A stretch of 31,054 nucleotides of DNA from a virus. The position numbers and the translations under genes are program-made. Of the stretch, positions 1-23,768 are shown in pieces; position 1 is the stretch's first letter, and each line of letters begins with the position of its first letter. The notes beneath the pieces were generated by a model, which did no database searches, was not told the DNA's origin, and saw only the letters and a list, made by a program, of their open reading frames with translations. The stretch spans positions 1 through 31,054 of the IMG/VR virus record IMGVR_UViG_3300006751_000077; one strand, written 5' to 3'.

Positions 1-3000
1 TCATAGAGTCTTGATTCCTCTTGGAAGCGAGCTTCATCTTCTGCGTCTGTTCTTGTTTTGCGTTCAGCTGAAGTCTCAACAGGTTCATCTCTCATCCATT
101 CCCATTCTTTATAGGCTCTTGGATCTTCTTCTTGAAGAATGTCTAAGAGATCGTCTACTCGTTCAGCATCCTTTTCATTAATAGGATAAGGAGCTGCTTT
201 ATCTCCTTTCTCTGGATATAAATAATCATCAATCTTTCTCAGAAGTTTGTCATAAGTTGGATCTTCAAAACTCCTGATGAAGTCAGACAGATCTGCCATC
301 TCATCAGGTTCAAAGTCGAGTCTCCGTTTTACAAAGTCTTCGTCAAAAACTGAACCATGAATAACATTAAATTCTTGAGCTGCTTCATTAATTTGAATAC
401 CTATATTTAAGAATCCTTGTTTTATTCTTTCAACTTGTGCTGGATCAAAATATGTTTCGAGTGAATACTTTCTAAGCTTTTTATTATTTCTACCCTTCAA
501 GTAATCATTGAATATTTTTTCAGTATTATGTGGGCCTATTCTTGCATGAATTTCAATCCATAACTCTTTAAAGAAGATCCCTATTTCTTGAACAAGTCTT
601 CTAAATGTTCCTTTTGGTGCAAAATCAACTGGCGTATAATCAAGCATAAAATGATCTGTTAGCATCTCTGCGAAATATTCATCTACATCTGCAAATCTAT
701 AATTTCCCTTTGTATATCCTGTGCCAGATAAGAACTCTGTGAACTCTGTATAAGCAAGACTATGATCCTTTATCTTCGTTATTTCTTTTATTGTTTTCTC
801 TGAAATCTCTCCTGTTGCTTTTACTTCTGCGTTAGCTATTGTTTGCTGTTCTTTCATCAGTTCCTTCATCTTCTTCATATCTGAAGGCGTCCCATCTTCC
901 TCCCAATACTTAAGTTTTTTCTTCATACTTCTCTCATATTTTGCTCTTTGATTCTTCCACTCTTTGAAGTATCTCTTTATATCTGAGGCAGGTAAATATC
1001 TCGATAAACTATGCCATAGTTCATGTATCATTGTTTCATCAAATCTGCCTGTCTTTATTACGTTTGATCTAATTTCTATTAATTTTCTATTGAAACTAAA
1101 TTGTCCAGGTGCTCCGATTTTACTATTAAAACTAAAGGCAACATCATCAAACATGTGACGACCAATAGTATCTATAAATTCTTCAACACTTTCTCTGTCT
1201 GCACGAGTGAACCCTTGTTTGCCTACTTGATCTTTAAGTCGTTTAATTATTTTTTCTGCACTTCTATAGTTTGAAAGAGTAATGCCTTTAGCTTCTCCGA
1301 TAGGAACAGTTGCTTTAGGAATATTTGTTTTTAACTTTTCAATAATCTGACTAATAGATCGACCTTCTATTACTTGTGCTGCAATTACTTCATCTGTTTT
1401 CCCTTCTTTACCATAGAAATAAGGAAGATCACCTGACTCAATTCCATCAGCAAGATCCTTCGCTCTTTGCATAAAAGCATTTCTATATAAATCTGCATCA
1501 GAAGCATCTGCTGCTGCAAGAGGTCTACCTTCTTGGTCATACCAGTTCTTATCGTCAACACGCATCTCGCCTGTATCTTTAGCTCCAGCAACAGCTTCTC
1601 TTTCTTGTAATTGTCTAAGAATATCTTCATCGTCAGCAGTAATATCAAAAGTCTCACCACTTGGTTCTTCTATTTGTCTACTTGGTGGTAAAGGTGCATC
1701 TGTAACTTCAGTTGTTAATTCTGTTAGTCGAGCTTGTAATGATTTATTTCTTCTATTCCATTTATCCCATCTTCTATAAGCAGGAGTCCATTTCCCATCT
1801 TTCCCTCTAGCTTGACCTTTACCTGGCTTTGGTGGCTCTGGGCCTAGTTCATCTATTTGTTGTCTGATTGATTGAAGATCACCTTCTACTTTGACTTTCC
1901 TTTCTTTAATGAAGTCAACTCTTTTAACTGGTTTGTCTAGTGATTCTCTTGTTTTCTTCCAAGCAGCTTCTCTCCATTCTGGAGATTTATGTGCAAAGGC
2001 TTGGTCGAATTTTCTTCTATCTGTTTGTGTTATCTGTTTATTTCGTCTATCTAATACTCTTCGATCTGTTAGGGCAGTCTGAATTTCAGGAACCTTCTCT
2101 AATGCTGCTCCTGCTTCTATTGCTTTGTCTCTATTCTTAGACCATAGTGGATTTGGTTTTCCATTTAATGTCTTAGGAGTATTCAAAAAAGTATTTAATT
2201 TAATTCTTGAATCAATTACTTTTACTGCTGATGCTGTAGAGATAGCTCCACCAATTCCAAGATCAATAAAGCCTCCTTCTAACGCATTTTTAAAACGACC
2301 TTTTAATCCTTCATCTTCTGGATTAGTTGCAAGCTGATTAACAAGAGGAATATGTTGAACATTATTAAACCAATTATTGCTATTAGCAGCTAAGTCATAT
2401 AGGCGACCTTCATATTGATCGAATCCAGCAAAGTCTATTAATGCTGCTCTAGGACTTGTTGCTGTTGCTGTCTTGATTCCAAACTTCGTAACATCTTGCA
2501 GAGTCCTTGGAGCAACAGGAGATTTTCCTACTGTTTTAAGAATCCCTCCTTTTAATTGTTGTGACTTAGCTCCTGCATAAGCAAGTGGCTTTGCTAAAGG
2601 AGTTGCTTTTAATCCCCAGTTTGCAATGCGTAATGCCTTACTGAGCATCACCCATTCAAGACCAAACTGAAGTATTCCTGTTCCTATATCTTCAACTATT
2701 CCACTACTTTCTAATGGCTTTGGCTTCCAATCACCTAGTCCGAGTATTGGCTTATCAGGCTCTGCAAAGGAAGTTCCAACTGAAGCATCAATCCACGGAG
2801 TAGCTGCTGCAATATCTCTAATTGTGTCGCTACCTTCCTGAACAGCATTAATTCCTGCATTAACAAACATGCGAGGAACAGCTTTTGCTGTACCTATTGC
2901 AGCTTCCTTAATATCAAAAGGTTCAGCATTTTCTCTAGCTTCTGTTATTTCTCTACGCTGCTGGTCAGCTGACGACTCAGTTCTATCTACCCATTCATAT

Positions 3001-3044
3001 TTTTCCTCCTTAGTCTCAGGATCAATAACAAGTTGATACGACAT
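1..3044 (-). CDS. gp16-like large ejection (internal core) protein with zincin-like HExxH site, 3' end outside window
   Basis: This reading frame is open from an ATG at 3044 to the window edge, giving at least 1014 residues with no stop; the C-terminus is missing. It follows the transglycosylase protein by 5 bases, the place of T7 gene 16, whose product is ejected into the cell. No transglycosylase domain is visible here; that domain is in the upstream gene. Seen in the sequence: an Ala/Gly-rich N-terminal third, a charged Lys/Arg/Glu-rich middle, and HELWH at residues 674-678, followed about 110 residues later by DEYFAEML (788-795). HExxH plus a downstream Glu-rich helix fits a gluzincin-type zinc peptidase, with H674 and H678 as ligands, E675 as catalyst and E789 or E793 as third ligand. 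Position supports the ejection-protein role; peptidase activity is inferred from motifs. Confidence 0.8.
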   Translation of the reverse strand, partial: MSYQLVIDPETKEEKYEWVDRTESSADQQRREITEARENAEPFDIKEAAIGTAKAVPRMFVNAGINAVQEGSDTIRDIAAATPWIDASVGTSFAEPDKPILGLGDWKPKPLESSGIVEDIGTGILQFGLEWVMLSKALRIANWGLKATPLAKPLAYAGAKSQQLKGGILKTVGKSPVAPRTLQDVTKFGIKTATATSPRAALIDFAGFDQYEGRLYDLAANSNNWFNNVQHIPLVNQLATNPEDEGLKGRFKNALEGGFIDLGIGGAISTASAVKVIDSRIKLNTFLNTPKTLNGKPNPLWSKNRDKAIEAGAALEKVPEIQTALTDRRVLDRRNKQITQTDRRKFDQAFAHKSPEWREAAWKKTRESLDKPVKRVDFIKERKVKVEGDLQSIRQQIDELGPEPPKPGKGQARGKDGKWTPAYRRWDKWNRRNKSLQARLTELTTEVTDAPLPPSRQIEEPSGETFDITADDEDILRQLQEREAVAGAKDTGEMRVDDKNWYDQEGRPLAAADASDADLYRNAFMQRAKDLADGIESGDLPYFYGKEGKTDEVIAAQVIEGRSISQIIEKLKTNIPKATVPIGEAKGITLSNYRSAEKIIKRLKDQVGKQGFTRADRESVEEFIDTIGRHMFDDVAFSFNSKIGAPGQFSFNRKLIEIRSNVIKTGRFDETMIHELWHSLSRYLPASDIKRYFKEWKNQRAKYERSMKKKLKYWEEDGTPSDMKKMKELMKEQQTIANAEVKATGEISEKTIKEITKIKDHSLAYTEFTEFLSGTGYTKGNYRFADVDEYFAEMLTDHFMLDYTPVDFAPKGTFRRLVQEIGIFFKELWIEIHARIGPHNTEKIFNDYLKGRNNKKLRKYSLETYFDPAQVERIKQGFLNIGIQINEAAQEFNVIHGSVFDEDFVKRRLDFEPDEMADLSDFIRSFEDPTYDKLLRKIDDYLYPEKGDKAAPYPINEKDAERVDDLLDILQEEDPRAYKEWEWMRDEPVETSAERKTRTDAEDEARFQEESRLY

Positions 3045-3049
3045 TAGCT

Positions 3050-6000
3050 CTACGCAATATTAGACCTTCCGCCTATGGTACTGGAATCTTTGTTCTTAGG
3101 CACTTCTTTTACTGGTAAAGGAGGTAAGTATTGAAGTATTGAACTAGCTGCTTCTTCTTTTGTTATTGTTCCATCTCCGTTTTTATCTAGGCCACTGTTC
3201 TGGTCATATCTAGTGTTTGGTTTTTCTTTTGTTCCTTTAGTAAATAGGACATAATCATTTGGTTTCCCTGCTGCTACTGGGAAAAGAATTGACATATAAA
3301 CATCTTTAAAATCATCTCCTGGTCTTGTCCATCTCTTCAGATGTTTAGCAACTAATTCAAGTTGTTCTACTCTTGTCATATTGGCTGCTTCTTCAGTTGT
3401 TACTCCCCATTCTTTTAGAGTGTCTGGCATGAATTGAATCAATCCAACAGCACCTGAGCCTGATTCTTTAGTTCCATCTTTACCTATATTGTATTGCCCA
3501 GGATCATAAGTACCACCTGTTTCAAATCCCATTACTGCCCATAAATAATTAACTGGAATATCTAAATCAGAAGATAGTTTTTCAACTGCTGATACAAATT
3601 CTTTGTCGTCAGTTACATCTTTAGGCAATGTATAGCTACCTGTTTCTATTCCTTCTGGATATAACTCTGTGTTGTCAGATGGATCTATTCGAGGTGGTGG
3701 CGTTGGCTCTTTCTTTAGTACCCCTGTTAAATCTGTTGATGCTACTAATGTTCCTCTATCTAATATTGAAGAGCTTACTTCATTATTTTTTTTTGCACCT
3801 TCAAATTGGAATTGGTCATTACGTTCATCAGGGAAAACTCTATCTAAACGCTCATAGAATTTTGCACTGAGAGGACGGTTATGTAGTTTTGCTTGAAGTG
3901 TAAAATATTCTTTAGGCGACATGTCTTTGCTGATTCGACTAAGAATAGCTTTTGTCTCTGGGCCATAGACTAAAGCTCTCGGTAATAAGTTCTTTGCCTG
4001 TGGAGTTCCAAATCCTGAGCCTACTGGAGTTTCAGCTGTTGGAACCCAATTCCAGAAAGGTAGGTTTTTTCCAGTCCAATTTTTATTTTCTAAAACAACT
4101 GCGAATTCTTCAATCATCTCCAGTTGCTTAACAAGTATTGGAGTTGAATATAAAGTATCTTCTCTGACTGCTGTTGCTAAAGCACTATTTTGCTGATCGT
4201 TTCCTCTACCATTTAATCTTCCGTCTAAACTTGTAATTAATTCTTTTGGAGTTTGATAGGTAAATTGAGTAGATCCTTCGTTGTTATTATCATCTCCTTC
4301 ATTATTATTAGTTAGATCTTTATTAGTGCCAACTTGGATATTCTTATCTTTATTTATTCCTGTTTTGTTTTGTTTTAACTTCGTACTTGCATTCTGCATT
4401 TCAGTATCTAATTTACTTGTTAATTCATTTAATTTTTCAAGTCTTTCCTCTAGTGGAATTGGTAATAAGAAAATTGCATTAGCCTCTCTCTTGAATTTTG
4501 CAACTCTTGCTAAATAAGCATTTTTATCTTCTGGATCCCATTCATCGAAACTCTTCATAGTCTTACCAGTCTTATCTCGATAATATGCCTCTATATATCC
4601 AGTAGCAGTTGCAATCTTTCCATCGCCACCATTCTTCCCATTCATCTCATCATTAAAGATACTCTTCTCGTTCGTATAATTAATATTAATATCTGGTTCT
4701 AATAGTCCATATTGATCTCTTGATATCCTATCTGTCCTAAAGAAATAATTTAAAAGACTTTTATTTAAAGTTGCTTGATCTGGATTTTCAGTAATTCGTT
4801 TTTTCAACCATTGATAATTTTCTTCTCTTTGTCCAGCAGTACGAGTATCTAAGAATTGTTTTTTTAATCTTAATAACTCTTGTCTATATTCATAGGCTTC
4901 TATTCCTGTTGAAAACTTCTTATCAGCATCAAATAATAATTGATCTATCTTACTAACTACACCTGAAAGATTAATAGCATTTGGGCCTGAATCAATATAA
5001 TATTCTACGTCATCAACAACGACAGTCCTTTGATCTTGACCATTAAGTATAGGATCAATCTCTGGTGTCTTTAAATCAGCATCTTGTTGATTGATATTTG
5101 CATAATCTATTCGTGCAGCATTTCCTGCTGTATTTTTATTATTACCATCCCTTATTCTTTGTGCTTCATTTCTCTCAGCTCCTATAGCAAGTTCCCACAT
5201 ATTCTCAAGGACTTGTTCTCCTCCGACTATCTCTGATAATAATTGTCCGTTACCTGCTCCTATTCTTGTATTCTTTAAAAGAGTTAAAGCTATATCAGCG
5301 TTATCATTAAGATTCTCTGTATTAGAATTAAGTATTACTCCATTAGCAATAGTTGTAAGTAACGCATTCGGTTCAACTTGTTTCTGATAATTCTTTATTG
5401 ATGTACCTGACTTTTGATTGAAATCAGTGATAGCACCACTGAAATTCATCCCTGGAATTACTTGAGCAGGAGTGTCACCATCTGAATCAATTGTATATCC
5501 TGTAATTTTATTTTGACTTGCAGTGCTTGCTTCTATAATTATGCTTCCAATTGATGTGTTAAAAGTGCTATTTGCTTTATTATCTTTATATGTAGCATGT
5601 TCTTTTGATAGTGTACGTCTTGCACTATATATAGCTGCTTGAATTTGAGGTTGTAGTTCTAAATATGCAGCAGTATTATCAATATTATTTTTAAAATAGT
5701 TAGTTGCATAATTCGACCATTCCTCAGTAGATGGATTAATAGGAATTATCTCTCCTGATTGCTCATCTATCCTGCTTTCATCTAAAGAAGAAGCATTATA
5801 ATCATTGAGTGCTACATCATTAAATCCACTAACAAGTGCTAATCCTTTATTCTTCGCATTTACAATTACAAGTTCTCTTTCAACTCTCTGATCCATTGAA
5901 GAGAAAATCCCATAAGAATCAGAAGCATTCTCATCTGTCTCAGCTTTTTTCTCTAACGCATTCTTAGCTGCATTTAATTGAGTATTAGATTCTGCTGCTT

Positions 6001-6367
6001 TTTCCTCTGCTTTTCCCCTAGCAGCTTTATCCATTGCCTTCTGAAAATTCCAAAAGTCAGGGGTAAATTGTTGAAGCTTTGTATTAACCTCGCCTAGATC
6101 CTTAACTAAATTCTTTAAATTTTGATCATTTGCTGGTGCTTCCGAAAAACTTTTGATTTGAGGTGCTTGAGGATAAGTTAAAGCTTGAGACCTATAATAA
6201 TCGTTTGTACTAACTCTTATTGGCTGACTTGGATTTGTACTTCCTGATATTTTAAATTCTTTTATTGGCGTACTTGTTTCACCACCAGCCGATGAAAGTC
6301 TTCCAGAACTCTGACGATCAGAAGTTCCTTTAGTTTTACCGTGAGTGTACTTACCAGTTCTTGCCAT
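3050..6367 (-). CDS. gp15-like internal core protein with C-terminal lytic transglycosylase domain and EF-hand loop
   Basis: A 1105-residue protein at the T7 gene 15 position, between the gp14-like and gp16-like genes. The first 900 residues are polar, Asn/Gln/Lys-rich and probably helical, as expected for an ejected core protein. Residues about 925-1020 form an SLT-type transglycosylase domain: FETGG with likely catalytic E949, then GLIQFMP at about 975-981. Near the C-terminus a canonical EF-hand loop, DKNGDGTITKEE (about 1061-1072), suggests calcium binding. In T7 the transglycosylase is at the N-terminus of gp16, so here the wall-cutting activity is on the neighbouring protein. It would open peptidoglycan during DNA ejection. 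The ATG at 6367 starts 15 bases after the gp14-like stop. The domain call is secure; the gp15 equivalence rests on position and size. Confidence 0.88.
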   Translation of the reverse strand: MARTGKYTHGKTKGTSDRQSSGRLSSAGGETSTPIKEFKISGSTNPSQPIRVSTNDYYRSQALTYPQAPQIKSFSEAPANDQNLKNLVKDLGEVNTKLQQFTPDFWNFQKAMDKAARGKAEEKAAESNTQLNAAKNALEKKAETDENASDSYGIFSSMDQRVERELVIVNAKNKGLALVSGFNDVALNDYNASSLDESRIDEQSGEIIPINPSTEEWSNYATNYFKNNIDNTAAYLELQPQIQAAIYSARRTLSKEHATYKDNKANSTFNTSIGSIIIEASTASQNKITGYTIDSDGDTPAQVIPGMNFSGAITDFNQKSGTSIKNYQKQVEPNALLTTIANGVILNSNTENLNDNADIALTLLKNTRIGAGNGQLLSEIVGGEQVLENMWELAIGAERNEAQRIRDGNNKNTAGNAARIDYANINQQDADLKTPEIDPILNGQDQRTVVVDDVEYYIDSGPNAINLSGVVSKIDQLLFDADKKFSTGIEAYEYRQELLRLKKQFLDTRTAGQREENYQWLKKRITENPDQATLNKSLLNYFFRTDRISRDQYGLLEPDININYTNEKSIFNDEMNGKNGGDGKIATATGYIEAYYRDKTGKTMKSFDEWDPEDKNAYLARVAKFKREANAIFLLPIPLEERLEKLNELTSKLDTEMQNASTKLKQNKTGINKDKNIQVGTNKDLTNNNEGDDNNNEGSTQFTYQTPKELITSLDGRLNGRGNDQQNSALATAVREDTLYSTPILVKQLEMIEEFAVVLENKNWTGKNLPFWNWVPTAETPVGSGFGTPQAKNLLPRALVYGPETKAILSRISKDMSPKEYFTLQAKLHNRPLSAKFYERLDRVFPDERNDQFQFEGAKKNNEVSSSILDRGTLVASTDLTGVLKKEPTPPPRIDPSDNTELYPEGIETGSYTLPKDVTDDKEFVSAVEKLSSDLDIPVNYLWAVMGFETGGTYDPGQYNIGKDGTKESGSGAVGLIQFMPDTLKEWGVTTEEAANMTRVEQLELVAKHLKRWTRPGDDFKDVYMSILFPVAAGKPNDYVLFTKGTKEKPNTRYDQNSGLDKNGDGTITKEEAASSILQYLPPLPVKEVPKNKDSSTIGGRSNIA

Positions 6368-6382
6368 AGTTAATTAGGAGAA

Positions 6383-7084
6383 TTATCGGACATATCCTTT
6401 ACTCCATCCCTTCCAATCATAGTTTGCATTTGAAGCCGCACTACTCCAATTCATACCTGCACTAGCACCTTGTAATCCAGCACTTAGTAATGCTAACCCT
6501 GTATTACCTCTGACTTTCTCTTGTAATATTGGTACAGCTGGGCCATAATCCACACGTTTAATATAAGGATTAAGACCAGCTCTCCTACTTGCCAATCTAA
6601 TATTTGCACTACGTTTATCTATATTTGATTGAACACCAGTAAATGCTAAATTCCTGTTTGTATTCCAATCAAATTGTCCATATTTAGCATCAACATCCGC
6701 TAATAAATTAACAATATTAACGCCTCCTTTACCTGTTGCAAGAATTTCTCCTTGAGCACTTATCGCTTCTAACTTCTTCTCTCTCTTTTTAATTGCTGAT
6801 TCTTCTTGTGCTTGAGCTATCTGTAAATTAATTTGTGCTCTTTCTTGCTCAAATGCTTTATTTGCCATAAATTCACTTGTCTCATTAGCTAATTCTGTAC
6901 TCATTTCCTGCTGTCTTTCTCTGAAATTATTAGCTTGAGACTGAAGTTTATCTTGTTCAAATCTTGCAACTGCATTCATATTTGCTACTTCTATCTGCTT
7001 GTTCTGCATCTTGATCTGATTCTGGTACTGCATAAAGCCCAGACCAGCTGAAAGAACACCAATAATGACAGCAGGAGGACACAT
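6383..7084 (-). CDS. gp14-like internal virion protein
   Basis: A 233-residue protein with a short hydrophobic N-terminus (residues about 3-18, PPAVIIGVLSAGLGFM). A long Gln/Glu/Lys-rich helical and probably coiled-coil stretch follows (about 20-110), then a Gly-rich, aromatic C-terminal part. Size (T7 gp14 is 196 aa), composition and position between the gp13-like and gp15-like genes match the T7 internal core protein gp14, which is ejected early and associates with the outer membrane to form part of the ejection channel. The start ATG at 7084 lies 3 bases after the upstream gene. The role is inferred from synteny and protein style, not from a catalytic motif. Confidence 0.82.
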   Translation of the reverse strand: MCPPAVIIGVLSAGLGFMQYQNQIKMQNKQIEVANMNAVARFEQDKLQSQANNFRERQQEMSTELANETSEFMANKAFEQERAQINLQIAQAQEESAIKKREKKLEAISAQGEILATGKGGVNIVNLLADVDAKYGQFDWNTNRNLAFTGVQSNIDKRSANIRLASRRAGLNPYIKRVDYGPAVPILQEKVRGNTGLALLSAGLQGASAGMNWSSAASNANYDWKGWSKGYVR

Positions 7085-7087
7085 CTT

Positions 7088-7549
7088 TTAAATCCTCACG
7101 AACTCGTAGAACATCTGAGATTCTGGCCCCCAGTTTAAATGTTTTTTAATGAAGGTAAAACCTAACCAATCAATCCATTTTACATGGACTTCATTCCTTG
7201 CATCAACCATATTAAAAAGAAGTGGATATAAAGATTGCATCTCAACTAACATCTCCTTTGATTTTCTGAGAAACCATCTTCTATCAATGGAATCATCAAC
7301 CATTGATTGACATCCTAACAACCAAATACGTCCTATGTCTTTTCCTTCAGGAACAACTCCACCCATTGCCATTAAATGACCATGACGACTTACAACTGTT
7401 AGACATGGCTTACTCATAAAATAAGCATAGAGCAAACCACCTTTAGGACAAGCACCTGTCTGCGCTTTTACTTCAGCAACATCTTCTCTCCTCATATTCT
7501 CTGCAACTATTGCAACATCTGTCAGCTTTGAAGGTCGTACAATTGCCAT
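7088..7549 (-). CDS. gp13-family virion assembly protein
   Basis: About 153 residues from the ATG at 7549 (MAIVRPSKLTD). This start is chosen over an in-frame upstream one at 7591 because it has a strong Shine-Dalgarno AGGAGG eight bases upstream and begins 2 bases after the gp12 stop; the upstream start would overlap gp12. The N-terminal part (evaluating rows of 'ARPAT..D' type, a GLLY/VSRHG core and a WLGFTFIK C-terminal part) resembles the small GNAT-like fold of the T7 gp13 family. In T7, gp13 is a 138-residue assembly factor needed for productive particles, encoded between genes 12 and 14 exactly as here. No acetyltransferase activity is claimed. Confidence 0.8.
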   Translation of the reverse strand: MAIVRPSKLTDVAIVAENMRREDVAEVKAQTGACPKGGLLYAYFMSKPCLTVVSRHGHLMAMGGVVPEGKDIGRIWLLGCQSMVDDSIDRRWFLRKSKEMLVEMQSLYPLLFNMVDARNEVHVKWIDWLGFTFIKKHLNWGPESQMFYEFVRI

Positions 7550-7551
7550 CC

Positions 7552-10266
7552 TCAAATCCTCCTTGCTCTTTGCTGTAACCAGCCTTCCCATTCAGCCGAC
7601 TGAAAAACACAAGGCAAAGGACTACTACTTACTAGTTCAATCTTTGCATCAGTATTTCTAGTCATAACAGGAACTCTGAAACTCTCTTTTGGAATGCCAA
7701 CTTGACCTATTACGTTCGATCCAACTTGTATCCCATTATAAGGATAAGTAAATGTATCTCTTCCCGCTGGAGTTATTTTTAATTCAAATGAAGAAGTTTT
7801 ATCAAAGACAACTGACCATTTTCTTAATTGTAAATAGGGGCTAGTTGCAACAGAGATAGTCCCTGATTCATCCTGTTGTTTTAAGTAAGGAGTACTAAAT
7901 TCATAAGTCATATCATAAGATTCTCCTATATAAAAAGTAGAGGTACTAACATCACCATTAACAGTTATCGTTCCATTATTAGAAGCATCCCCTACTGTTT
8001 CTGCTGTAGGAGTTAAAACCTGTCCATGCTTTAACTTGATTAATGCTTTAAATTTATACGTATTAGATGCAGCTTGTTTTATAAATGATATAGCTTCATT
8101 AGCTTGAATTGTTTTACCAAACAAATAAGAAGGAAAATCACTAATTGTAACAGTCGCATTACCTGTAGTTTTAGCTGTAGTTGATCCTCCTGTACTGCTA
8201 ATAACTAATCCTCCTGTATTTACAATTGTAATAACTGCATTAGTAGAAGGTTGAGAAGTTGGGAAGCTATTAATATCTGTATAGTTTGTTCCTCCGACTG
8301 TTAAAGGTCTGCCTACTACTTTAGTCACTCCAGTATTTGCCAATGGATATGGCAATGTAATTGTTGTTTGAGCATTTAAACCACCTGCATTTGTAACACT
8401 AAAAGTACAATTTTCCTCTGCTGTTTTTCTATCTAATAGAATTTCTATCTCTGTCCCTATGTCAACACTTTCAGGACGCAATGAGGCTTTCTCTAAATAA
8501 ACACCATCAGCATATTCAGCAATAATATAAAGATCATTATCTAAAATTACAGCTGAAAGAATAGATTTACTACCTTTCATTTCCCAGTAAGACCAAGCAG
8601 ATTGCAATTTAGTTTCATCTGAAAAAAGAAATTTATAAATATATAAACGTGTCGGTTCATCCTTGCTAATCAATACAATTGTTTCTTCTGAAACAGAAGC
8701 AGCTATTGCAACTAAGTTCTTAGGAATATATCTAGGAACTGATGCTGTTACCTCAGCTGAGATAGGAGTTGAACCTGTTACATCTGGTATATAAAATTCA
8801 CGTAACCCAGTGAAATTACCTTTGTTAATGGGAAAGAAAACAGTACGACCTACACCTATAGGATCAATCAAATCAATTGAATCATATTTCGTCATTGCTG
8901 TAATCGTTGCAGTCCTAGGAGTCAATGGAGCACCTAAACCTGTAGATCCTGTATCTAATCTGAACTGCCCATGAGGACTAAATAAGAGCAAGGTGTTGGC
9001 AAATGCCATGCTTGAGGTCAAGAAATTAATATCAGTACCACCTGTGCTTACGAAGATAGGATCACTGTCTACAACTGTTTGAACAGTTTCAGGCCAAAAT
9101 CTTTTGTAATCATCAGCAGCTGATAGACATACATATTCATCAGATAAGAAAACCAATCTATTTCTGAATACATTAATATTTTTAATAGTCTCTCCAACAA
9201 AAGGAGGATTAGGAGCACTAGCTGTATCTCCTGCAATTCTATGTGTCCAAGTATGTTTTTGAAATGTAAACGTACCATTAGCATTTCTAATTAAAGTATG
9301 AGGCATTGTCGTTGCCTTTAACTGATAGACAATATTAGGGCCGACTGTTTCTCTCCAGATACCTTTACCACTTGTCCCTCCATCAGTAGTCTCAAACTTT
9401 ACATAGTAATCATCTGCTTCTGTCGAACTTGAACCAATAACTTTGAGTATTTGACCGTTAATTCCTTTAAGTGGAAGCTGTTGTATTGCTTCTATTTCAT
9501 CTTTTATCCCTACAATAAACATGTCAGCAATCGTGTCACTAACAGCAATTGTGAATGTTCCTCCATCATCCTTAACTATCTTCAATAAATAATCTTCAAT
9601 TGTTGTCGCTGTATATTCTGACCCCAAGGTACTGTCATTATTAATTAGATCTCTTAATCCATCACATACACTCTTGTTACTAGGAGCATTAGAAGATGAA
9701 CCTGATCCAATGATAGGTGTAGTGAATTCCTCCTTAACTTCAGTATGGTCATCAGCATTTAATGTTACTGAGTAAGTAGTATTGTACTCAGCTTGCCTAA
9801 TAAATACCAAGCCAGTACTAGCAGAAAAAACTGGAGAGGTTGTAGTCTCTGTCTCGATTGTCTTCTCTTTATTTGTAATAAAAGTATGGTCTGCAATGCT
9901 TCCTAATCGAAAAGAGTTTGCAGGTTCTGATGTATTTGTTATATCAAGATAAGTTTTTCCGTCTGGAAAACTAACTGTTTGTTCAACTCCAGCCAAGCTA
10001 AATACTTTTAAGTCTCCATCAGTTATATAGATTAAGTATTGAACAGATCCATCACGGTCAACAATGCTGCTAAAAGGTCTGGTACTTCCTGCTGTACCAG
10101 TAAACATTCTTGCTTGATGATAAAAAGGAGGACGTTTCTTCAAGCCTTCAACAGAACTAGAAATACAATTAACAATTTTCTCTGCTTGGGATGCAAGTCT
10201 CAAAGCCGCTGGTTGCTGACTTACTCCATTGATAAGGTTCGGAATTGATTTTGTAACTAATGGCAT
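7552..10266 (-). CDS. tail tubular protein B (T7 gp12-like nozzle)
   Basis: A 904-residue protein whose N-terminus, INGVSQQPAALR followed by EGLKKRPP, is the hallmark opening of T7-type gp12 tail nozzle proteins. T7 gp12 is 794 residues; the extra length here is in Thr/Gly/Asn-rich beta segments in the middle. It forms the distal tail tube and closes the channel until host contact. It lies directly downstream of gp11 (2 bases between) and upstream of gp13, the conserved T7 order. The start ATG at 10266 is the first residue of the conserved opening, so it is well supported. Confidence 0.95.
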   Translation of the reverse strand: MPLVTKSIPNLINGVSQQPAALRLASQAEKIVNCISSSVEGLKKRPPFYHQARMFTGTAGSTRPFSSIVDRDGSVQYLIYITDGDLKVFSLAGVEQTVSFPDGKTYLDITNTSEPANSFRLGSIADHTFITNKEKTIETETTTSPVFSASTGLVFIRQAEYNTTYSVTLNADDHTEVKEEFTTPIIGSGSSSNAPSNKSVCDGLRDLINNDSTLGSEYTATTIEDYLLKIVKDDGGTFTIAVSDTIADMFIVGIKDEIEAIQQLPLKGINGQILKVIGSSSTEADDYYVKFETTDGGTSGKGIWRETVGPNIVYQLKATTMPHTLIRNANGTFTFQKHTWTHRIAGDTASAPNPPFVGETIKNINVFRNRLVFLSDEYVCLSAADDYKRFWPETVQTVVDSDPIFVSTGGTDINFLTSSMAFANTLLLFSPHGQFRLDTGSTGLGAPLTPRTATITAMTKYDSIDLIDPIGVGRTVFFPINKGNFTGLREFYIPDVTGSTPISAEVTASVPRYIPKNLVAIAASVSEETIVLISKDEPTRLYIYKFLFSDETKLQSAWSYWEMKGSKSILSAVILDNDLYIIAEYADGVYLEKASLRPESVDIGTEIEILLDRKTAEENCTFSVTNAGGLNAQTTITLPYPLANTGVTKVVGRPLTVGGTNYTDINSFPTSQPSTNAVITIVNTGGLVISSTGGSTTAKTTGNATVTISDFPSYLFGKTIQANEAISFIKQAASNTYKFKALIKLKHGQVLTPTAETVGDASNNGTITVNGDVSTSTFYIGESYDMTYEFSTPYLKQQDESGTISVATSPYLQLRKWSVVFDKTSSFELKITPAGRDTFTYPYNGIQVGSNVIGQVGIPKESFRVPVMTRNTDAKIELVSSSPLPCVFQSAEWEGWLQQRARRI

Positions 10267-10268
10267 GA

Positions 10269-10874
10269 CTATCTAATAAGCGCACGATGAGGTCTATAAG
10301 TAGAGAAGTGTCCAGTTTGATTTGTATTTCCTCGAAGCATACTATGTTCATCTCTTGTTGTTTCTTCTTCTAAGAAATGACTTCTTGCTTCTAGCTCGGC
10401 TGTCAAATTAATCTTTGCATAGTCTTCACTGCCTACTGTTGCTTCTTGTAACTGTCTTCCAGCTCTAACCATGATATATCTTCTTGCATGTTCAGGTAAT
10501 TCTAACCAATCAAGAATTATTGTTACATCACCTTTCAAATCTTCTGTAAAAGTATAGAGCTGTTTCTTTCTATCGTATAACTTTCCATTTCTAAGAATGA
10601 TGTCATATTCAGGATAAAGATAGGGATCAATATATACACGAGTTGTAGAGAATCCCAGCTCTATCTCATCGGCAGCATTCCTTACTAAATCTTTCTCGTA
10701 GTCAGTATTAAAAGTCCAACCTTCCGATTGCACCTCTCTAATTGCACCATTTAATGCATCTTGTGCTTGTTTCGCAATTCCTACTTGCCCAACCAAACTA
10801 TTAACAGGAGCCTCACCTGTCATTTGAAGAACTTTATTTATTGCTTCCAGTTCAGTTGTAAGAGTTAAAGCCAT
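10269..10874 (-). CDS. tail tubular protein A (T7 gp11-like gatekeeper)
   Basis: About 201 residues, starting MALTLTTELEAINKVLQ, followed by a GEAPVNSL segment typical of T7 gp11 proteins (196 aa in T7). It forms the ring joining portal to nozzle. The frame is open back to an ATG at 10913, but that ATG lies beside a terminator-like hairpin (10890-10911), and the conserved gp11 opening begins only at the ATG at 10874, so 10874 is preferred. It is the first gene after the capsid gene and its terminator, and is followed by gp12 after 2 bases, as in T7. Confidence 0.92.
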   Translation of the reverse strand: MALTLTTELEAINKVLQMTGEAPVNSLVGQVGIAKQAQDALNGAIREVQSEGWTFNTDYEKDLVRNAADEIELGFSTTRVYIDPYLYPEYDIILRNGKLYDRKKQLYTFTEDLKGDVTIILDWLELPEHARRYIMVRAGRQLQEATVGSEDYAKINLTAELEARSHFLEEETTRDEHSMLRGNTNQTGHFSTYRPHRALIR

Positions 10875-10879
10875 GAGGG

Positions 10880-10911
10880 AAAAGAAAGAGGAGGGCAATA
10901 CTGAGCCCCCC
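10880..10911 (-). terminator. T-phi-like terminator between capsid and gp11 genes
   Basis: Read leftward, GGGGGGC (10911-10905) pairs with GCCCTCC (10896-10890) in seven pairs, one of them G-U, with an 8-base loop. It is followed at once by TCTTTCTTT (10889-10881). T7 has its main terminator T-phi between gene 10 and gene 11, the same place. Partial termination here would make capsid the most abundant late product. The structure is visible in the sequence; its activity is inferred. Confidence 0.7.
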
Positions 10912-10922
10912 ATGTTTAAAGA

Positions 10923-11888
10923 TTAGCTAGTAGCCCAGTAGATCTCAACTGCACAGTCAGGACGTAGAACGCCAGTACCGTGAGCCATTGAACCCACCAT
11001 AAATGTTCCCTGCCATAAAGCATGAACATCAGAACCAGTTTGCTCCATCTTGAGATCCATCAACTTCACAGTACCAACAGCTTGCTTGTTAAATACAAGG
11101 CCTACGCTGTCAGTGTAGTTAGCGTGATAGGTGTTGTTCTCACCTGTTACAGCAGATCTGTTTGTAGTAGGAAGATGGTTGGACTTGACAATGCTAATAC
11201 CAGCAACCTTCAAGACTGTTCCATCTGCATACGCTCCAGATCCACCCCAGTCTCTGTTGAGGACATCAGTCGTTTGAGCCAACTTGTAATATTCTGTTGG
11301 GCCAAGAACAACGTAACGATTATCTTCAGGGACATTGTTGATGTCCATCTTCTCGGCTGCTGTCCATAGAGCAGTAACTAAGTTTGCACCTGTTACAGCT
11401 GCCTTAGTTGCAGCAACGATCTTGATGCGAGTACCACCAGGGAGATCAGTGTTGAAGTTAGTCGCAGTTCTTGCAGCTTGAGCAAGAGTTGCAGCTACGT
11501 TCTGGTCGAACTTATAGGCAAGCTGATTGCCCATCTCGACAGAATACTGAGATCTAACATCGTAGTGATTCTTGGCTTCATCAATATCAGCTAGGAAAAC
11601 TTGGCTAACAAGCTTGTCATCAATGTTGATGGTAGCTTCAGCGTGCTTGATAGCAGCACCTGTCAGCTGGGTTCCTGGCACATGATAGGCAGTTGAAGCG
11701 TTTCCAATTATTGGAAATTGTGCTGATTTGCCTGATGAGATTGTCCGCACATTGTGCAGAGATTCAAATACGGTTGCCTTACGGAAAGATGAAAGAACTT
11801 CTCCAGAAAAAACTTTAAGGAAAAGAGCATCATAAGCAGTACCCGTATTGTTAACCAGGCCCAGCCTGGATACGGTCATGTTGGACAT
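10923..11888 (-). CDS. major capsid protein (T7 gp10-like)
   Basis: A 321-residue protein with characteristic T7-type capsid segments: LFLKVFSGEVL (about 23-33), ISSGKSAQFP (about 50-59), then HAEATINID and NHYDVRSQYS (about 107-116), equivalent to the NHYDVRSEY element of T7 gp10A (345 aa). It has the HK97-like fold known for this family and builds the icosahedral shell. It sits between scaffold and gp11. The upstream gap (11889-12006) and the downstream terminator suggest its own expression control. Base composition is noticeably richer in G+C than in its neighbours, as expected for a highly expressed gene with selected codons. Confidence 0.97.
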   Translation of the reverse strand: MSNMTVSRLGLVNNTGTAYDALFLKVFSGEVLSSFRKATVFESLHNVRTISSGKSAQFPIIGNASTAYHVPGTQLTGAAIKHAEATINIDDKLVSQVFLADIDEAKNHYDVRSQYSVEMGNQLAYKFDQNVAATLAQAARTATNFNTDLPGGTRIKIVAATKAAVTGANLVTALWTAAEKMDINNVPEDNRYVVLGPTEYYKLAQTTDVLNRDWGGSGAYADGTVLKVAGISIVKSNHLPTTNRSAVTGENNTYHANYTDSVGLVFNKQAVGTVKLMDLKMEQTGSDVHALWQGTFMVGSMAHGTGVLRPDCAVEIYWATS

Positions 11889-12006
11889 GAATTAATACCT
11901 AGAAAAAAGAAAGAGGGTTTCCCGACCTCGCTTCCTTCCACTGAGGGTATCCGTCGCAACGGGCCAAAGTTTCAGTCAATAGGTCTAGATATCTAAATAA
12001 TAACTC
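11889..12006 (-). promoter_or_regulatory. capsid leader region with weak hairpin and T-rich tract
   Basis: A 118-base gap between scaffold and capsid, the position of the strong phi10 promoter in T7. Seen here: a 10-base palindrome TAGATATCTA (11986-11995), a CCGT/ACGG hairpin (about 11951-11962), and a weak GAGG/CCTC stem (11913-11916 with 11926-11929). On the leftward strand the weak stem is followed by CTTTCTTTTTTCT. The segment TTATTTAGATA here resembles TTATCTTAGATA in the divergent control region (leftward strand, 17428-17417). A promoter for the phage polymerase is plausible but cannot be shown from one genome. Confidence 0.35.
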
Positions 12007-12798
12007 TTAAACGACATTTGACCTAGAAAGTTTTTCTTCTACTGTCTTTCTAAATGCAGGGTCTGAAGCATAAAGAGGATCATTCATAGCAGCAACGACT
12101 TGAGCCATTGAATCAAACTTGGCTTTAGTTCCTTTCCTATTAGTCCTTCCACTGACTAGCTTTGGCTCTTTGTTACCTTCTGCCATGTAACGAGCATTTA
12201 ATCCAGCTACAGCAAGTTTTACCATGTCATAGTTTGGATTTTTGATTGCCATATCAAAAGCAGCCTTCTCACTATCTGTTAAGACTCCAGCTGCCCAACC
12301 AATCATTTGTCCATAAGCAGCCTCTCCTCCATACAGATCTTGTATCTCTTTAACTTGTCCCTGTTGTAATTCAGTATCTCTTTGAGCATTAAATTGAATG
12401 CCCTGAAGATAAGCTTCAACCATGTCACGACTAAACCCTGCCTCCTTTAATTCACCATAATCTTCATCTGTTAATTGACCTGATTCCTGCCATCTACTAT
12501 TCATTCCTTCGTAATCAATCTCAGCCTCTTCAAACTTGCTTCCTATGTAATCACCATAAATTTCTTTAGCACCTTGAGGAGTTTCTGTTTCTCCTTGTTC
12601 TGGCTGATCTTCAGTGATTCCAGAATCTTCTGGAGATTCCTGACCTAATTGCTTTTGGAGTTCGAGATAACCTTTCTCCAACTCCTCTTGCGATTTGTAC
12701 TTACCAGCAAGCAGCCCAGAGTCTTCTGTCGTTTCTGTTGATTGTTCTGGTGCTTCTGCTGTAGTAGGAGCGTCTTTAATAGTGAGTGCTTCTGGCAT
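12007..12798 (-). CDS. scaffolding / capsid assembly protein (T7 gp9-like)
   Basis: A 263-residue, strongly acidic protein (Glu, Gln, Thr-rich N-terminal half, residues about 1-90) with a helical middle and a basic C-terminal tail, the usual plan of T7-type scaffolding proteins (T7 gp9 is 307 aa). It would direct prohead assembly and then leave the shell, its basic C-terminus contacting the capsid protein. It lies between portal and capsid genes, as in T7. Identity is from composition, length and position. Confidence 0.88.
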   Translation of the reverse strand: MPEALTIKDAPTTAEAPEQSTETTEDSGLLAGKYKSQEELEKGYLELQKQLGQESPEDSGITEDQPEQGETETPQGAKEIYGDYIGSKFEEAEIDYEGMNSRWQESGQLTDEDYGELKEAGFSRDMVEAYLQGIQFNAQRDTELQQGQVKEIQDLYGGEAAYGQMIGWAAGVLTDSEKAAFDMAIKNPNYDMVKLAVAGLNARYMAEGNKEPKLVSGRTNRKGTKAKFDSMAQVVAAMNDPLYASDPAFRKTVEEKLSRSNVV

Positions 12799-12806
12799 GG
12801 TGGGTA

Positions 12807-12968
12807 CTAGCGAATTGTGTAATGTTGATCATCGTCCTGAGTTACACCAGGACTAGGGGCTTTAACTTTAGGCTTGACCTCCTGTGGGGCCGCTGGGGAT
12901 TCCTGGCTCTTGGACTGGTTGGGGGAGGGCGTTTGCTGTGTCTCCTCCTTCGGTGAACTGGGGGCCAT
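12807..12968 (-). CDS. 53-codon proline-rich gene overlapping the 3' end of the portal gene
   Basis: A complete reading frame in a different frame from the portal gene, starting at the ATG at 12968 and ending at the TAG at 12807-12809. It overlaps the last 101 bases of the portal gene and stops 8 bases before the scaffold start, filling what would otherwise be an empty gap. A strong Shine-Dalgarno AAGGAG sits six bases before the ATG. The product begins MAPSSPKEETQQTPSPNQSK, is rich in Pro, Ser, Gln and Lys, and ends in an acidic DDD segment and HYTIR. No known family is recognised. The ribosome binding site and gap filling support it being real; the alternative is that the portal gene gains this tail by frameshifting. 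Confidence 0.55.
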   Translation of the reverse strand: MAPSSPKEETQQTPSPNQSKSQESPAAPQEVKPKVKAPSPGVTQDDDQHYTIR

Positions 12969-20064: not shown

Positions 20065-22464
20065 TTGAGTTCAGAGAAAAACTTTGGTACTCAGATGAAC
20101 AAACTCACGAGGCAACTTGCTCTCGAAAGAGAGATGCTAACGCTGGGGTGCGATCGAGTTCGACTCATCACACACAACCAGCAAAAGAAAAAGATGGAGT
20201 CTCTCTCTAAATGGGGAGAGGCTTTATCTGCCTATGGTGTAGATCAAATTGTTATCCACCTAAGGGCAGTAAGAAAAAGAATTGAGTCAGGCAAAGCAGG
20301 AGTTAGCTTTGCCCAACTACTTCCCATCACCCACTTGCCACCTCAGCAGGTAGCAGCAGCAAGCATAAGAACTGTAATTGATTCTTTATCTGCTTGTCCC
20401 ACTCTTCACAGTATTTCAATGGACGTAGCTGACAAGCTATGGATTGAAACGATGTTGGATAGAGCTACTACTCAAGAGTTATTCAGGTTTAAGAAGGGTC
20501 GTAGTCGTCAGGCTCATAAGATGGCTGCCATCAGAAGGATGCAGCAAACAGAGATCTGGACTTCAAGAGAGAAGATTGCATCAGGTTTATTCCTAGTCAA
20601 TCTCATCGCTAAAGAGACTGGACTCATTCAAATAGTTAGAGAAGATCTACCTCACAAAAAGCAGCGTGTTGTTAAAGCAACTGATGAGTGCATGGCATGG
20701 ATCAATGAGGTTAAAGAACAGCAAGAGTTAATGACTCCTAACTACTTGCCTATGGTGATACCTCCTAAGCCTTGGTCTTCACCAAGCAACGGAGGTTATT
20801 ACACAAAGACACCCTTGAAATTATTCAAGAGTAATAACGAGATCATTAAAGCCGACTCAAATGGTGATGAGATTTTCTATAAGGCAGCAAACATACATCA
20901 GTCTGTTGCCTGGAAAGTACACACTTGGATGTTGGAACAGGTAACACATGCCTATGACAACAACATAGAAGTTGGCTGCCTCTTACCTAGAGATGGATGG
21001 CCTATTCCTCCTTATCCTAAACACTTGGATGAAGAAGACTTAGGTGTACTCAAGTGGAGGAAGTCTGCAAAGATTCTCCATGAAAAGAATGATCGCACTA
21101 GGAACACACGCATAGCAAACGCAAAGATTATTTGGGTTGCTCGTAGGTTCCAAGAGGAGGAAGAGATATTCTTTCCTACCTCTATGGATTTCCGAGGAAG
21201 ATTTTACTACCGACCTCCCTATCTAAATCCACAAGGCAATGATGTATCTAGGTCGTTGCTTCTATTTGCAAAGGCAAAGCCGATCACTGAAGAGAGTCAT
21301 CTTGACTGGCTAAGAATACATGGAGCTAATCTCTATGGTCTTAAGTCGGACTGGCAGACTCGCATTGACTGGGTAAAGGAAAGAGAGCAGCTCATCTGTG
21401 GAGCTGGGCATGATCCTTGGATTAATGCTGAGTTCTGGATGAGAGCTGATAAACCTTGGAGTTTCTTAGCTTTCTGTCGTGAGTATTCCAACTTCCAAAG
21501 ACATGGATGGGGATATGAATCTGCTCTACCTATCATGCTTGATTGCACTTGCTCAGGTATCCAACATTTCGCAGGAATATTGAGGAGTAAATCACTTGCT
21601 TCTGAAGTTAATCTTTATCCAAGTGATAGACCTCAAGATATCTATGCGACTGTCATTACCAAAGTCAATGAACATCTAAGAGATAGCACTGATGACCGAG
21701 CTAGGAAGTGGCTGATGCTGCAACCTGATCGTTCACTAGCTAAACCATGCGTAATGACCACGCCTTATGCAGCTAGTCGAACAGCGTTCTACTACTACGC
21801 TTACGACTGGGCGCAGAAGAGAGCTAAAGATCTATTCGGTAATGGATCTTGGACAGTTCAGAAGGGATGCATGACAACCATGCACTTCATGGCAAACATC
21901 TTGCATAAAGAATCAATCAAGGTAATTGCTCCAGCTGTAGAAGCTATGAATTATTTCAAAGCTATAGGTCTACGAGCTGGTAAAGAGAATAAGCCGCTGC
22001 AATGGAGATCCCCTAGTGGGTTACTCGTAGAACAGCGATACCAAAATCAAAGAGAATCTAGGATTCGTCTTAGATATCTCTCAGATGTCTCTCTTGATAT
22101 ACGGACAGTAGTTGAAACCGTAGGCCTAGACAAGACTCGGATGGCTAATGGTTTAACCGCCAATATTCTCCATAGTTTTGATTCATCTCACTACTCAATG
22201 GCTATTGTCCATGCTAGAAAGAAAGACCCCACCATAAACATAGGAGGTGTGCATGATTGCTTTGCCACTGACCCCGCAAGCATGAGCAAGCTAAGGGATT
22301 CTGTTAGGCATAGCTTTGCTGATCTATATCAAACAGATCGGCTATCACAAATTAAATCAAAGCTCGAATCACAAATCCAAGACAAAAAGGATCTACCTCC
22401 TGAGCCTGAACTCGGAGAGTTAGATCCATCTATTACAAAATCATCAACCTATTTCATCACATGA
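20065..22464 (+). CDS. T7-like single-subunit DNA-directed RNA polymerase
   Basis: A product of up to 799 residues (T7 gp1 is 883) that transcribes the phage's middle and late genes from its own promoters. All key positions are present: D493 in MLDCTCSGIQHF and D731 in GGVHDCF (T7 D537 and D812), and R556, K560 and Y568 with exactly the spacing of T7 R627, K631 and Y639. The DFRGRFYYRPPYLNPQGND segment precedes them. The start is uncertain: TTG at 20065 directly follows the upstream gene, while the first ATG is at 20095 with a poor ribosome site. It is shorter at the N-terminal domain, which in T7 handles promoter melting. The stop overlaps the SSB start by 4 bases. Confidence 0.97.
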   Translation: MSSEKNFGTQMNKLTRQLALEREMLTLGCDRVRLITHNQQKKKMESLSKWGEALSAYGVDQIVIHLRAVRKRIESGKAGVSFAQLLPITHLPPQQVAAASIRTVIDSLSACPTLHSISMDVADKLWIETMLDRATTQELFRFKKGRSRQAHKMAAIRRMQQTEIWTSREKIASGLFLVNLIAKETGLIQIVREDLPHKKQRVVKATDECMAWINEVKEQQELMTPNYLPMVIPPKPWSSPSNGGYYTKTPLKLFKSNNEIIKADSNGDEIFYKAANIHQSVAWKVHTWMLEQVTHAYDNNIEVGCLLPRDGWPIPPYPKHLDEEDLGVLKWRKSAKILHEKNDRTRNTRIANAKIIWVARRFQEEEEIFFPTSMDFRGRFYYRPPYLNPQGNDVSRSLLLFAKAKPITEESHLDWLRIHGANLYGLKSDWQTRIDWVKEREQLICGAGHDPWINAEFWMRADKPWSFLAFCREYSNFQRHGWGYESALPIMLDCTCSGIQHFAGILRSKSLASEVNLYPSDRPQDIYATVITKVNEHLRDSTDDRARKWLMLQPDRSLAKPCVMTTPYAASRTAFYYYAYDWAQKRAKDLFGNGSWTVQKGCMTTMHFMANILHKESIKVIAPAVEAMNYFKAIGLRAGKENKPLQWRSPSGLLVEQRYQNQRESRIRLRYLSDVSLDIRTVVETVGLDKTRMANGLTANILHSFDSSHYSMAIVHARKKDPTINIGGVHDCFATDPASMSKLRDSVRHSFADLYQTDRLSQIKSKLESQIQDKKDLPPEPELGELDPSITKSSTYFIT

Positions 22465-23087
22465 TTAAATCAGAGATCTTAAACCTGACAACACCTCGAT
22501 GCGGTTTTCAATTTGCCTGGTTAGTAGAGGCAGATACTAAATTTGAAACCCCAGGAGTATGGAAAGTTACATGCCTAATCGAACCTGAGAAGGCAACAGA
22601 AATTGAAGAGCAACTAACTGGATTACTAGACAGATGGAAGGCTCAACTTAAAGCAGCTGAACCTGATAAGAAGTTCAAACTTGCAGCCCTACCCTGGGGA
22701 TATGAAGAGGCAGATGGCAAGCCTTACTTCCTAGTTAAAACCAAGATGAAAGTCGGAGGTATTAACCAGCAAGGTAAGCAATGGACTAACAGACCTCCTG
22801 TTCTACAGAACGCTCAAGGTCAACCAATGACTGAGGAAGAGAAGCAAGCAGTGAATAAGATGGGGCCAGGTACAGAAGGTCAAGTCTTTTTACGTTGTTC
22901 TGGTTACTCAGGAAACTTTGGAGTTGGTATCAAGATCCAACCTGAAGCTGCCATCATTCATAAGCATGTCGAATACTCAAAAAGTGCAACCTCCTACGGG
23001 TTTCAGACGGAAGAGGCGTCGGAGCCAGTCGCATGCCCAGCCCCAGCCCCAACCCCAACAGCAGTCTCATCAGGAGACGAGTTCTAA
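22461..23087 (+). CDS. single-stranded DNA-binding protein (T7 gp2.5-like)
   Basis: A 208-residue protein (T7 gp2.5 is 232) with the OB-fold features of the family: an opening RCGFQFAWLVEADTKFE segment, a YFLVKTKMK strand and a Pro-rich linker (about residues 190-203). It ends in an acidic tail with a final phenylalanine, SGDEF, the element by which T7 gp2.5 contacts DNA polymerase and helicase. It coats ssDNA during replication and recombination. It lies between RNA polymerase and endonuclease I, the T7 gene order, and overlaps both. Confidence 0.9.
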   Translation: MIKSEILNLTTPRCGFQFAWLVEADTKFETPGVWKVTCLIEPEKATEIEEQLTGLLDRWKAQLKAAEPDKKFKLAALPWGYEEADGKPYFLVKTKMKVGGINQQGKQWTNRPPVLQNAQGQPMTEEEKQAVNKMGPGTEGQVFLRCSGYSGNFGVGIKIQPEAAIIHKHVEYSKSATSYGFQTEEASEPVACPAPAPTPTAVSSGDEF

Positions 23088-23436
23088 GTACAGAAGTAAA
23101 TTTGAGAGTCGTGTAGCAGCGGCTCTCACTCAAAATAAAGTTGGGTTTACCTATGAAGATATGACCTTGCCTTACATTATTGAGGCGGTTTATAAACCTG
23201 ACTTTATTCTGGACAACGGTGTAGTTGTAGAGACAAAAGGATTCTTTTCCTCTCAGGACAGACGCAAGATGCTTGCTGTTCAGAAGCAACACCCCGACTT
23301 AGATATTCGTTTGTGTTTTCAGAACGCAAAAGAAAAGATTAGCCGAGCCAAACGATCCGTTACTTATGGTCAGTGGGCTACAAGGCATGGATTCCAATGG
23401 TCTAATGGCACTATCCCCTCATCCTGGTATGACTAA
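22966..23436 (+). CDS. endonuclease I, Holliday-junction resolvase (T7 gp3-like)
   Basis: A 156-residue protein from the ATG at 22966 (T7 gp3 is 149 aa) with the complete active site: E47 (KFESR), D79 (KPDF), E89 and K91 (VETKG). It cuts branched DNA and helps degrade host DNA. The N-terminal 40 residues (RRKRRRS and a Gln/Pro/His-rich run) are encoded within the end of the SSB gene in another frame, an overlap of 122 bases. There is no ATG, GTG or TTG later in frame before the catalytic domain, so the overlap appears unavoidable; an alternative start at 22918 would make it longer. Confidence 0.92.
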   Translation: MSNTQKVQPPTGFRRKRRRSQSHAQPQPQPQQQSHQETSSKYRSKFESRVAAALTQNKVGFTYEDMTLPYIIEAVYKPDFILDNGVVVETKGFFSSQDRRKMLAVQKQHPDLDIRLCFQNAKEKISRAKRSVTYGQWATRHGFQWSNGTIPSSWYD

Positions 23437-23671
23437 AAGACAACGAGCAATAGCAGAAGATGAAACTTCTTTCATTTCTGCTAGGCAAATCAAAGTATTT
23501 ACTATCAAGGTCATCGACCCTGATAAAGATAATAAATCTAGTCTTATATTCCAACGTGCATCAACAGCAGCTAAGGCAGTTGAAAAAATCAAGGCAGCAA
23601 ATCCTGAATGGAAGTGTCTTGTGATTGATAGTCACGAGCCTAAGCCTTGGAGGAGAGATGAACGCTACTGA
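23429..23671 (+). CDS. 80-residue hypothetical protein
   Basis: From the ATG at 23429, which overlaps the endonuclease stop by 8 bases; the frame is open further upstream within the endonuclease gene. It has a basic, helical start (MTKRQRAIAEDE), a beta segment (IKVFTIKVIDPD), a helix (ASTAAKAVEKIKAANP) and a C-terminal strand and tail. The order resembles small phage proteins that convert ambient signals to 'KVFTVKVI' type domains, but no family can be named. It lies in the endonuclease-primase interval and is probably translated by coupling. Confidence 0.6.
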   Translation: MTKRQRAIAEDETSFISARQIKVFTIKVIDPDKDNKSSLIFQRASTAAKAVEKIKAANPEWKCLVIDSHEPKPWRRDERY

Positions 23672-23768
23672 TCGCATCAAGTATGCAGAACAAAGAATCA
23701 AGGAATTAAAACTCCTGATCCACCACTGGGAGAAAAATGAAAAGCAAAAGCAAGTACCTAAGGCATGA
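23658..23768 (+). CDS. 36-codon gene overlapping the primase start
   Basis: A short frame, start ATG at 23658 with an excellent ribosome site (GGAGGAGAG directly before), end TGA at 23766-23768. The product is a single charged helix, MNATDRIKYAEQRIKELKLL with a Lys/Gln-rich tail, typical of a tiny coiled-coil protein. It overlaps the previous gene by 14 bases and the primase-helicase by 32. No family is recognised. It may be a functional small protein or a coupling leader that feeds ribosomes to the primase start. Confidence 0.5.
   Translation: MNATDRIKYAEQRIKELKLLIHHWEKNEKQKQVPKA

Follow-up and report, generated by a model that had tools for sequence, protein, structure and literature searches.

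The window (the whole 31,054-base stretch of marine T7-like phage DNA analysed here) carries ejection protein genes on its minus strand in the T7-type order gp14-gp15-gp16, an order shared with relatives L004 and L047. A gp14-like protein (6383..7084, Pfam T7_gp14) and a gp15-like protein (3050..6367, PHROG matches) are joined at the left end by a gp16-like giant internal virion (ejection) protein (3..3044), whose open-reading frame starts with an ATG at 3044 and is open past the window start. As this frame runs off the contig end, only the first 1014 residues are contained in the window; complete close relatives (n = 4) are 2185-2240 residues long, the window holds ~45% of the protein and the C-terminal half lies beyond the contig. 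The conserved N-terminal part, residues 1-321 (2082..3044, minus), shares 91% nucleotide identity with L004, residues 162-356 match pelagiphage ‘internal virion protein D’ and residues 166-275 align with gp16 of HTVC011P. One or both ends of a full-length relative, P0002, match gp16-like proteins of pelagiphages, roseophages and cyanophages, and phrog_6651 (‘internal virion protein’) aligns end to end (E 3e-251) with L085, a more distant relative carrying the same domain. Judged from this N- and C-terminal homology and from gene order, the window protein belongs with the T7 gp16-like internal virion proteins. It shares both terminal parts and the gp14-gp15-gp16 order with T7 gp16 and internal virion protein D (phrog_6651), whereas window-type proteins differ from T7 gp16 in carrying an extra 500-1000 residues which include a zincin-like domain. 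Pfam and PHROGs recognised no second enzymatic domain in the window gp16 or its relatives, and a simple hydropathy analysis of the window gp16 gave a single weak segment at residues 259-277.

The candidate active site comprises HELWH at residues 674-678 (1011..1025, minus), in which alignments and the model of a relative predict H674 and H678 as zinc ligands and E675 as general base, and DEYFAEML at residues 788-795 (660..683, minus), in which the third ligand is predicted to be E789 (or E793). The two motifs are 114 residues apart, in agreement with the ~110 of a preliminary description of this DNA, and by chance a protein of matching length and composition would be expected to contain 0.009 HExxH motifs. 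Chance occurrences do exist, for example T7 gp16 contains HERLH at 559 without a zincin context, so that conservation is the real test. The domain alignments were assembled from uncultivated-virus loci. All 99 distinct sequences contained HE(L)(W/L)H as well as [DS]E[YFW]F[AST]E; the two His, the catalytic Glu and the later Glu, whose constancy the preliminary description had proposed to examine, are thus unchanged throughout. The spacing between HELWH and DEYFAE ranges over 56-158 residues. An alignment of 49 sequences, with identities down to ~26%, contained invariant columns at G647, H674, E675, L676, H678 and P685, and also at Y782, R783, E789, F791, E793 and D797 (window numbering). Of the columns outside the motifs, Gly647 is predicted just before strand 2 (1104..1106, minus) and Asp797 on the Glu helix (654..656, minus). 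The invariance of HELW is to some extent predetermined, as HELW was part of the search pattern that retrieved the majority of the loci, and two motif-free scans used the gp16 C-terminus as query instead. In the C-terminus scan of the window's own subfamily the zinc site was kept in every complete homologue, one of which has HELLH, and across the C-terminus scans the motif took the forms HELWH, HELLH, HEILH, HEMLH, HEMVH, HEGTH and HESTH. When seven non-HELWH alleles were aligned, both His, the Glu, and the Glu-Phe of the later stretch were invariant. A chance origin of HELWH was rejected on this conservation. Searches of Pfam, NCBIfam, PHROGs and PDB sequences with the domain returned no significant family; the weak profile matches were to ATLF, SprT-like and DUF6782.

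Alignments, the model of relative L085 and fold matches delimit a putative zincin-like metallopeptidase domain at residues 590-870 (435..1277, minus). Alignment and AlphaFold place a helical insert of ~75 residues (residues ~700-775, 720..947, minus) between the HExxH and Glu helices, which is missing from compact relatives. The window's own domain, predicted by AlphaFold from 27 sequences, reached pLDDT 72, with no sheet, long helices in the insert and junk helical matches. L085, a compact relative 42% identical to the window over the domain, stands in for it here and was predicted from the 49-sequence alignment at pLDDT 91.3 and pTM 0.88. Before the active site this model has a helix (25-38) and three strands (47-51, 58-61 and 66-70), followed by a helix (79-94) which holds HELWH (85-89), a further helix (97-117) and a helix (140-160) which holds both invariant Glu. 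The two His are not separated by this fold, and the HExxH and Glu helices stand in zincin topology. Together with the invariant residues and the gp16 homology, the model supports a predicted gluzincin-type zincin fold with an invariant zinc site, as the preliminary description had proposed for this gp16-like protein; the structure prediction it suggested bore this out in L085, where a zincin core with gluzincins closest was obtained, but not in the window's own model, which lacked the sheet.

Foldseek of the L085 model against the PDB gave a list led by zincins (the BlaR1 metalloprotease domain, selecase and abylysin), with no match at E 0.001. The top rows of VIA-align were the lethal factor endopeptidase domain (Z 8-9 over ~140 residues, 13-16% identity; the highest gluzincin score was Z 9.0 over 137 residues at 15% identity), at scores of which even Z 9 barely exceeds the noise level of the tool, followed by Pro-Pro endopeptidases (Z ~7) and then selecase and M1 aminopeptidases. 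M34-type endopeptidases (PPEP-2/3 and the lethal factor endopeptidase domain) are the closest solved folds to L085, at Z 7-9 over 131-142 residues and 13-18% identity, a similarity which spans the HExxH and Glu helices and is uninformative on substrate or harm; at sequence level the PDB search was without match. The best matches among predicted viral structures (BFVD) were large phage proteins, several of them annotated as polyvalent and one, from a Bordetella phage, as Internal protein D; a weak BFVD hit pointed to Ralstonia phage RSB3.

The domain is part of a larger exchangeable cassette at residues ~322-912 (309..2081, minus), which is replaced by another allele in L004 and has ~300 further residues ahead of the zincin. 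L085 and gp16 of Prochlorococcus phage P-SSP10 are alignable at residues 41-351 and 913-1884 (34 and 37% identity), and the slot in between contains 561 residues including the zincin in L085 versus 62 in P-SSP10. A C-terminus scan of a second lineage found HExxH in each of 34 complete gp16 open-reading frames of at least 1400 residues and in none of seven of 1000-1300 residues; the motif was likewise not found in the ordinary gp16 (1142-1610 residues) of the pelagiphages, the roseophages and the one cyanophage examined. Homologues without the motif at this place, which the preliminary description had regarded as grounds against a zincin, thus exist, but they lack the entire cassette and do not refute it. 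Other zincin alleles in the same gp16 slot are profile-related to the window family (E 4.5e-6, probability 87%). The presence of the cassette in every complete homologue found in the window's subfamily could reflect a need for it there.

Cassettes and backbones exhibited different relationships between contigs. Three pairs of loci share nearly the same zincin on highly diverged C-terminal parts: L045 and L046 (98% identical zincins, 32% identical C-terminal parts), L122 and L131 (97% and 32%), and L078 and L080 (95% and 23%). L004 and L097 show the reverse, with zincins sharing 39% identity and C-termini 86%. At the DNA level the cassettes form patches of 0.8-1.2 kb at 90-95% identity, with little or no DNA similarity elsewhere in the gene. 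The zincin and C-terminus trees were strongly incongruent in AU tests, in which groups were picked after tree inspection and quick trees without mixture models were used, so that the p values are only supporting. By such comparisons the window gp16 is itself a mosaic: beyond residue 321 it shares ~50% amino acid identity with L004 through the zincin and 87% nucleotide identity from residue 913, and it shares 84-85% nucleotide identity with L002 and L003 over residues 489-1014. A fortuitous HExxH in a helical structural protein, or an assembly artefact, could draw on the chance motif of T7 gp16 and on the fact that single metagenomic contigs can be chimeric, but the swaps are repeated and reciprocal over many independent contigs, so chimeric assembly explains single cases at most, and with the conservation, the fold and the same arrangement in cultivated Xanthomonas phages this explanation is refuted for practical purposes. 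We tentatively suggest, at somewhat short of even odds, that gp16 of T7-like phages includes a slot dedicated to proteases, whose hot-swapped cassette would bring one of several zincin families into the host at genome entry; recombination would diversify the cassette because its targets in the host, perhaps defence or early regulatory proteins, vary.

The cultivated phages in question carry related arrangements with other alleles. The L243 allele (HELLH, same gp16 slot) matches gp16 of the cultivated Xanthomonas phages XAJ24 and f30-Xaj (Pradovirus), which like the window have a zincin-like motif inside a T7-like gp16 (HELLH at 674, HEMLH at 675), but which belong to another zincin allele family and are annotated ‘internal virion protein with endolysin domain’. 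Similarly, Prochlorococcus phage P-SCSP1i encodes a gp16-like protein of 2563 residues (ULF49799.1) with a homologous C-terminus (E 2e-24) and HESFH at 1204; a stretch with Glu comes after the motif, which lies at broadly the same place as in the window family. Its allele differs, however, and the profile match has a probability of 17%. By eye, this P-SCSP1i protein (L008 967-8658, annotated hypothetical) also contains ParB-type and ADP-ribosyltransferase-type stretches, Pfam gave nothing in it at E 0.1, and it may be a polyvalent protein. Separately, L093 encodes (4812-12923) a 2704-residue protein with a HELWH zincin and a second motif, HEFHH at 1399, close to a tail-protein gene, and proteins of this type occur on contigs of 43 and 70 kb. 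Searching 50,697 phage records with L093 and L085, both of the HELWH type, retrieved no relative, and a scan of bacterial genomes matched one MAG contig.

Zincins in giant injected phage proteins have been known since Iyer et al. 2017, in which zincin-like MPTases are the commonest domain of polyvalent proteins and N4 vRNAP and P1 DdrB are named (PMC5512222). The polyvalent zincin core described there consists of a helix, three strands, the HEXXH helix and the Glu helix, with variable inserts between the last two (PMC5512222), and the L085 model shares this core fold, the active-site layout and the variable insert (PMC5512222). Polyvalent proteins and the window gp16 are also both giant and expected to be delivered with DNA. 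Polyvalent proteins further join domains of unrelated biochemistry in a single chain; in the window gp16 Pfam and PHROGs recognised no second enzymatic domain. However, neither a zincin slot in T7-like gp16 nor the HELWH/DEYFAE family nor any swapping of cassettes was found in Iyer et al. 2017, and text searches of it gave no mention of internal virion, T7-like or cyanophage (PMC5512222). The literature searched contained no report of zincins in T7-like gp16, though other papers may differ; within it, the window family, the fixed gp16 slot and the cassette swapping appear undescribed.

N4 virion RNA polymerase offers a known case of such a motif in a delivered protein, with HELVH at 2228 and a later Glu-bearing stretch as in the window gp16; a direct comparison of the N4 domain with the window family aligned 10 columns. 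The N4 region holding the HExxH domain is needed for encapsidation (PMC5512222), and the passages of a structure preprint on N4 vRNAP that name the motif report no activity (PMC12633501), which would suit a catalytically dead zincin retained for folding or packaging. Such a role is improbable for the gp16 cassette, as alleles from HEGTH to HELWH, although different at nearly every other position, all keep the predicted catalytic residues, and gp16 proteins without the domain exist. Most likely the domain acts as an accessory protease that enters the host at infection, and our reading of the alignments is that H674 and H678 of HELWH and the Glu of DEYFAE would bind zinc whilst E675 would activate water. 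H, E, H and Glu are invariant, and from this we infer zinc binding and proteolysis as their function.

As with other gp16 proteins, the head would package the gp16 of the window and release it together with the genome, an expectation based on homology and gene order (review, PMC8954989). In T7 gp16 the first membrane region is in the N-terminal part (PMC8954989), and since the cassette comes after that part, close to the point of entry of T7 gp16 into the inner membrane, the protease would end up at this membrane or past it at an early stage of infection. Its main substrate would be a host protein, for example a defence or early regulatory protein, although a host substrate is the weakest step of this proposal. 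A host protein is likelier than the gp16 backbone because many relatives have a working gp16 that lacks the cassette and because the cassette is swapped across backbones with 32% identity.

Self-processing is the main alternative for the substrate. Inside the capsid, or once ejected, the zincin would cut its own polypeptide or adjacent ejection proteins and would thereby free cassette-encoded or C-terminal domains or ease passage through the portal channel. Iyer et al. 2017 proposed this role for the zincins of polyvalent proteins, and P1 DdrB undergoes processing ahead of its packaging (PMC5512222); the ~300 cassette residues ahead of the zincin could be released. Against this, a near-identical protease sits on backbones which share a third of their residues, making a fixed, conserved cut site in the backbone unlikely, though a site within the cassette would be compatible with the swaps; N4 vRNAP has such a domain yet is packaged uncut (PMC5512222), and short gp16 proteins do without such a protease. 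We consider self-processing possible but unlikely.

The preliminary description also set the zincin against the transglycosylase domain of T7 gp16, as if one had taken the place of the other. The N-terminal transglycosylase of T7 gp16 is a phage-specific feature and not general. Pfam recognised no N-terminal transglycosylase in the window gp16, which differs from T7 gp16 in this respect, and gp16 crosses the periplasm; the zincin might then clear a periplasmic or membrane protein barrier for envelope or peptidoglycan access and partly stand in for the T7 enzyme. However, the neighbouring gp15-like protein has a lysozyme/transglycosylase-type (SLT-like) domain at residues 919-1077 (3137-3613, minus), indicated by PHROG matches and by an SLT-like motif read from the sequence, and many related gp16 proteins have no zincin. 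We regard a part in envelope access as very doubtful. Replacement of the transglycosylase by the zincin was rejected, because the gp15-like protein has its own SLT-like C-terminus and the gp16 proteins of XAJ24 and f30-Xaj carry an endolysin domain and a zincin together.

Our preferred reading combines these points: the gp16 zincin would be an active, exchangeable zinc-protease cassette which is ejected early and for which a host substrate is likelier than the gp16 backbone, and we assign this combination a probability of roughly 55%. If the cassette is active, a protease would be among the earliest enzymes that many marine T7-like phages bring into the host and would be swapped like a tail-fibre tip. 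The gp16 protein, usually viewed as part of a DNA channel, would then also be a delivery vehicle for exchangeable enzymes, and what polyvalent zincins cut could be tested directly in phages that are in cultivation, such as XAJ24 and f30-Xaj of Pradovirus or the Prochlorococcus phages P-SCSP1.

Variation of a similar kind was observed in the gp15-like protein, the C-terminal ~200 residues of which (~885-1105, with the SLT-like domain) are also exchangeable: the stretch is common to L002 and L024 (86-92%), and L005 and L004 follow the window only to about residue 884-895, then continue with different sequence. Near the end of the gp15-like protein (~3137-3230, minus) the loop DKNGDGTITKEE resembles an EF-hand, and Pfam gave weak EF-hand matches at residues 1060-1072. 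Elsewhere in the window a DNA polymerase open-reading frame was not evident by eye between the RNA polymerase and the right end of this incomplete contig; the DNA polymerase gene is missing from some cyanopodoviruses (PMC9860041). The T7-type RNA polymerase itself is clear (Pfam; region 20065-26084), and to the right of the replication genes (26455-29080) lies a cluster of small, conserved, function-unassigned genes (phrog_2714, 564, 650, 848 and 570).
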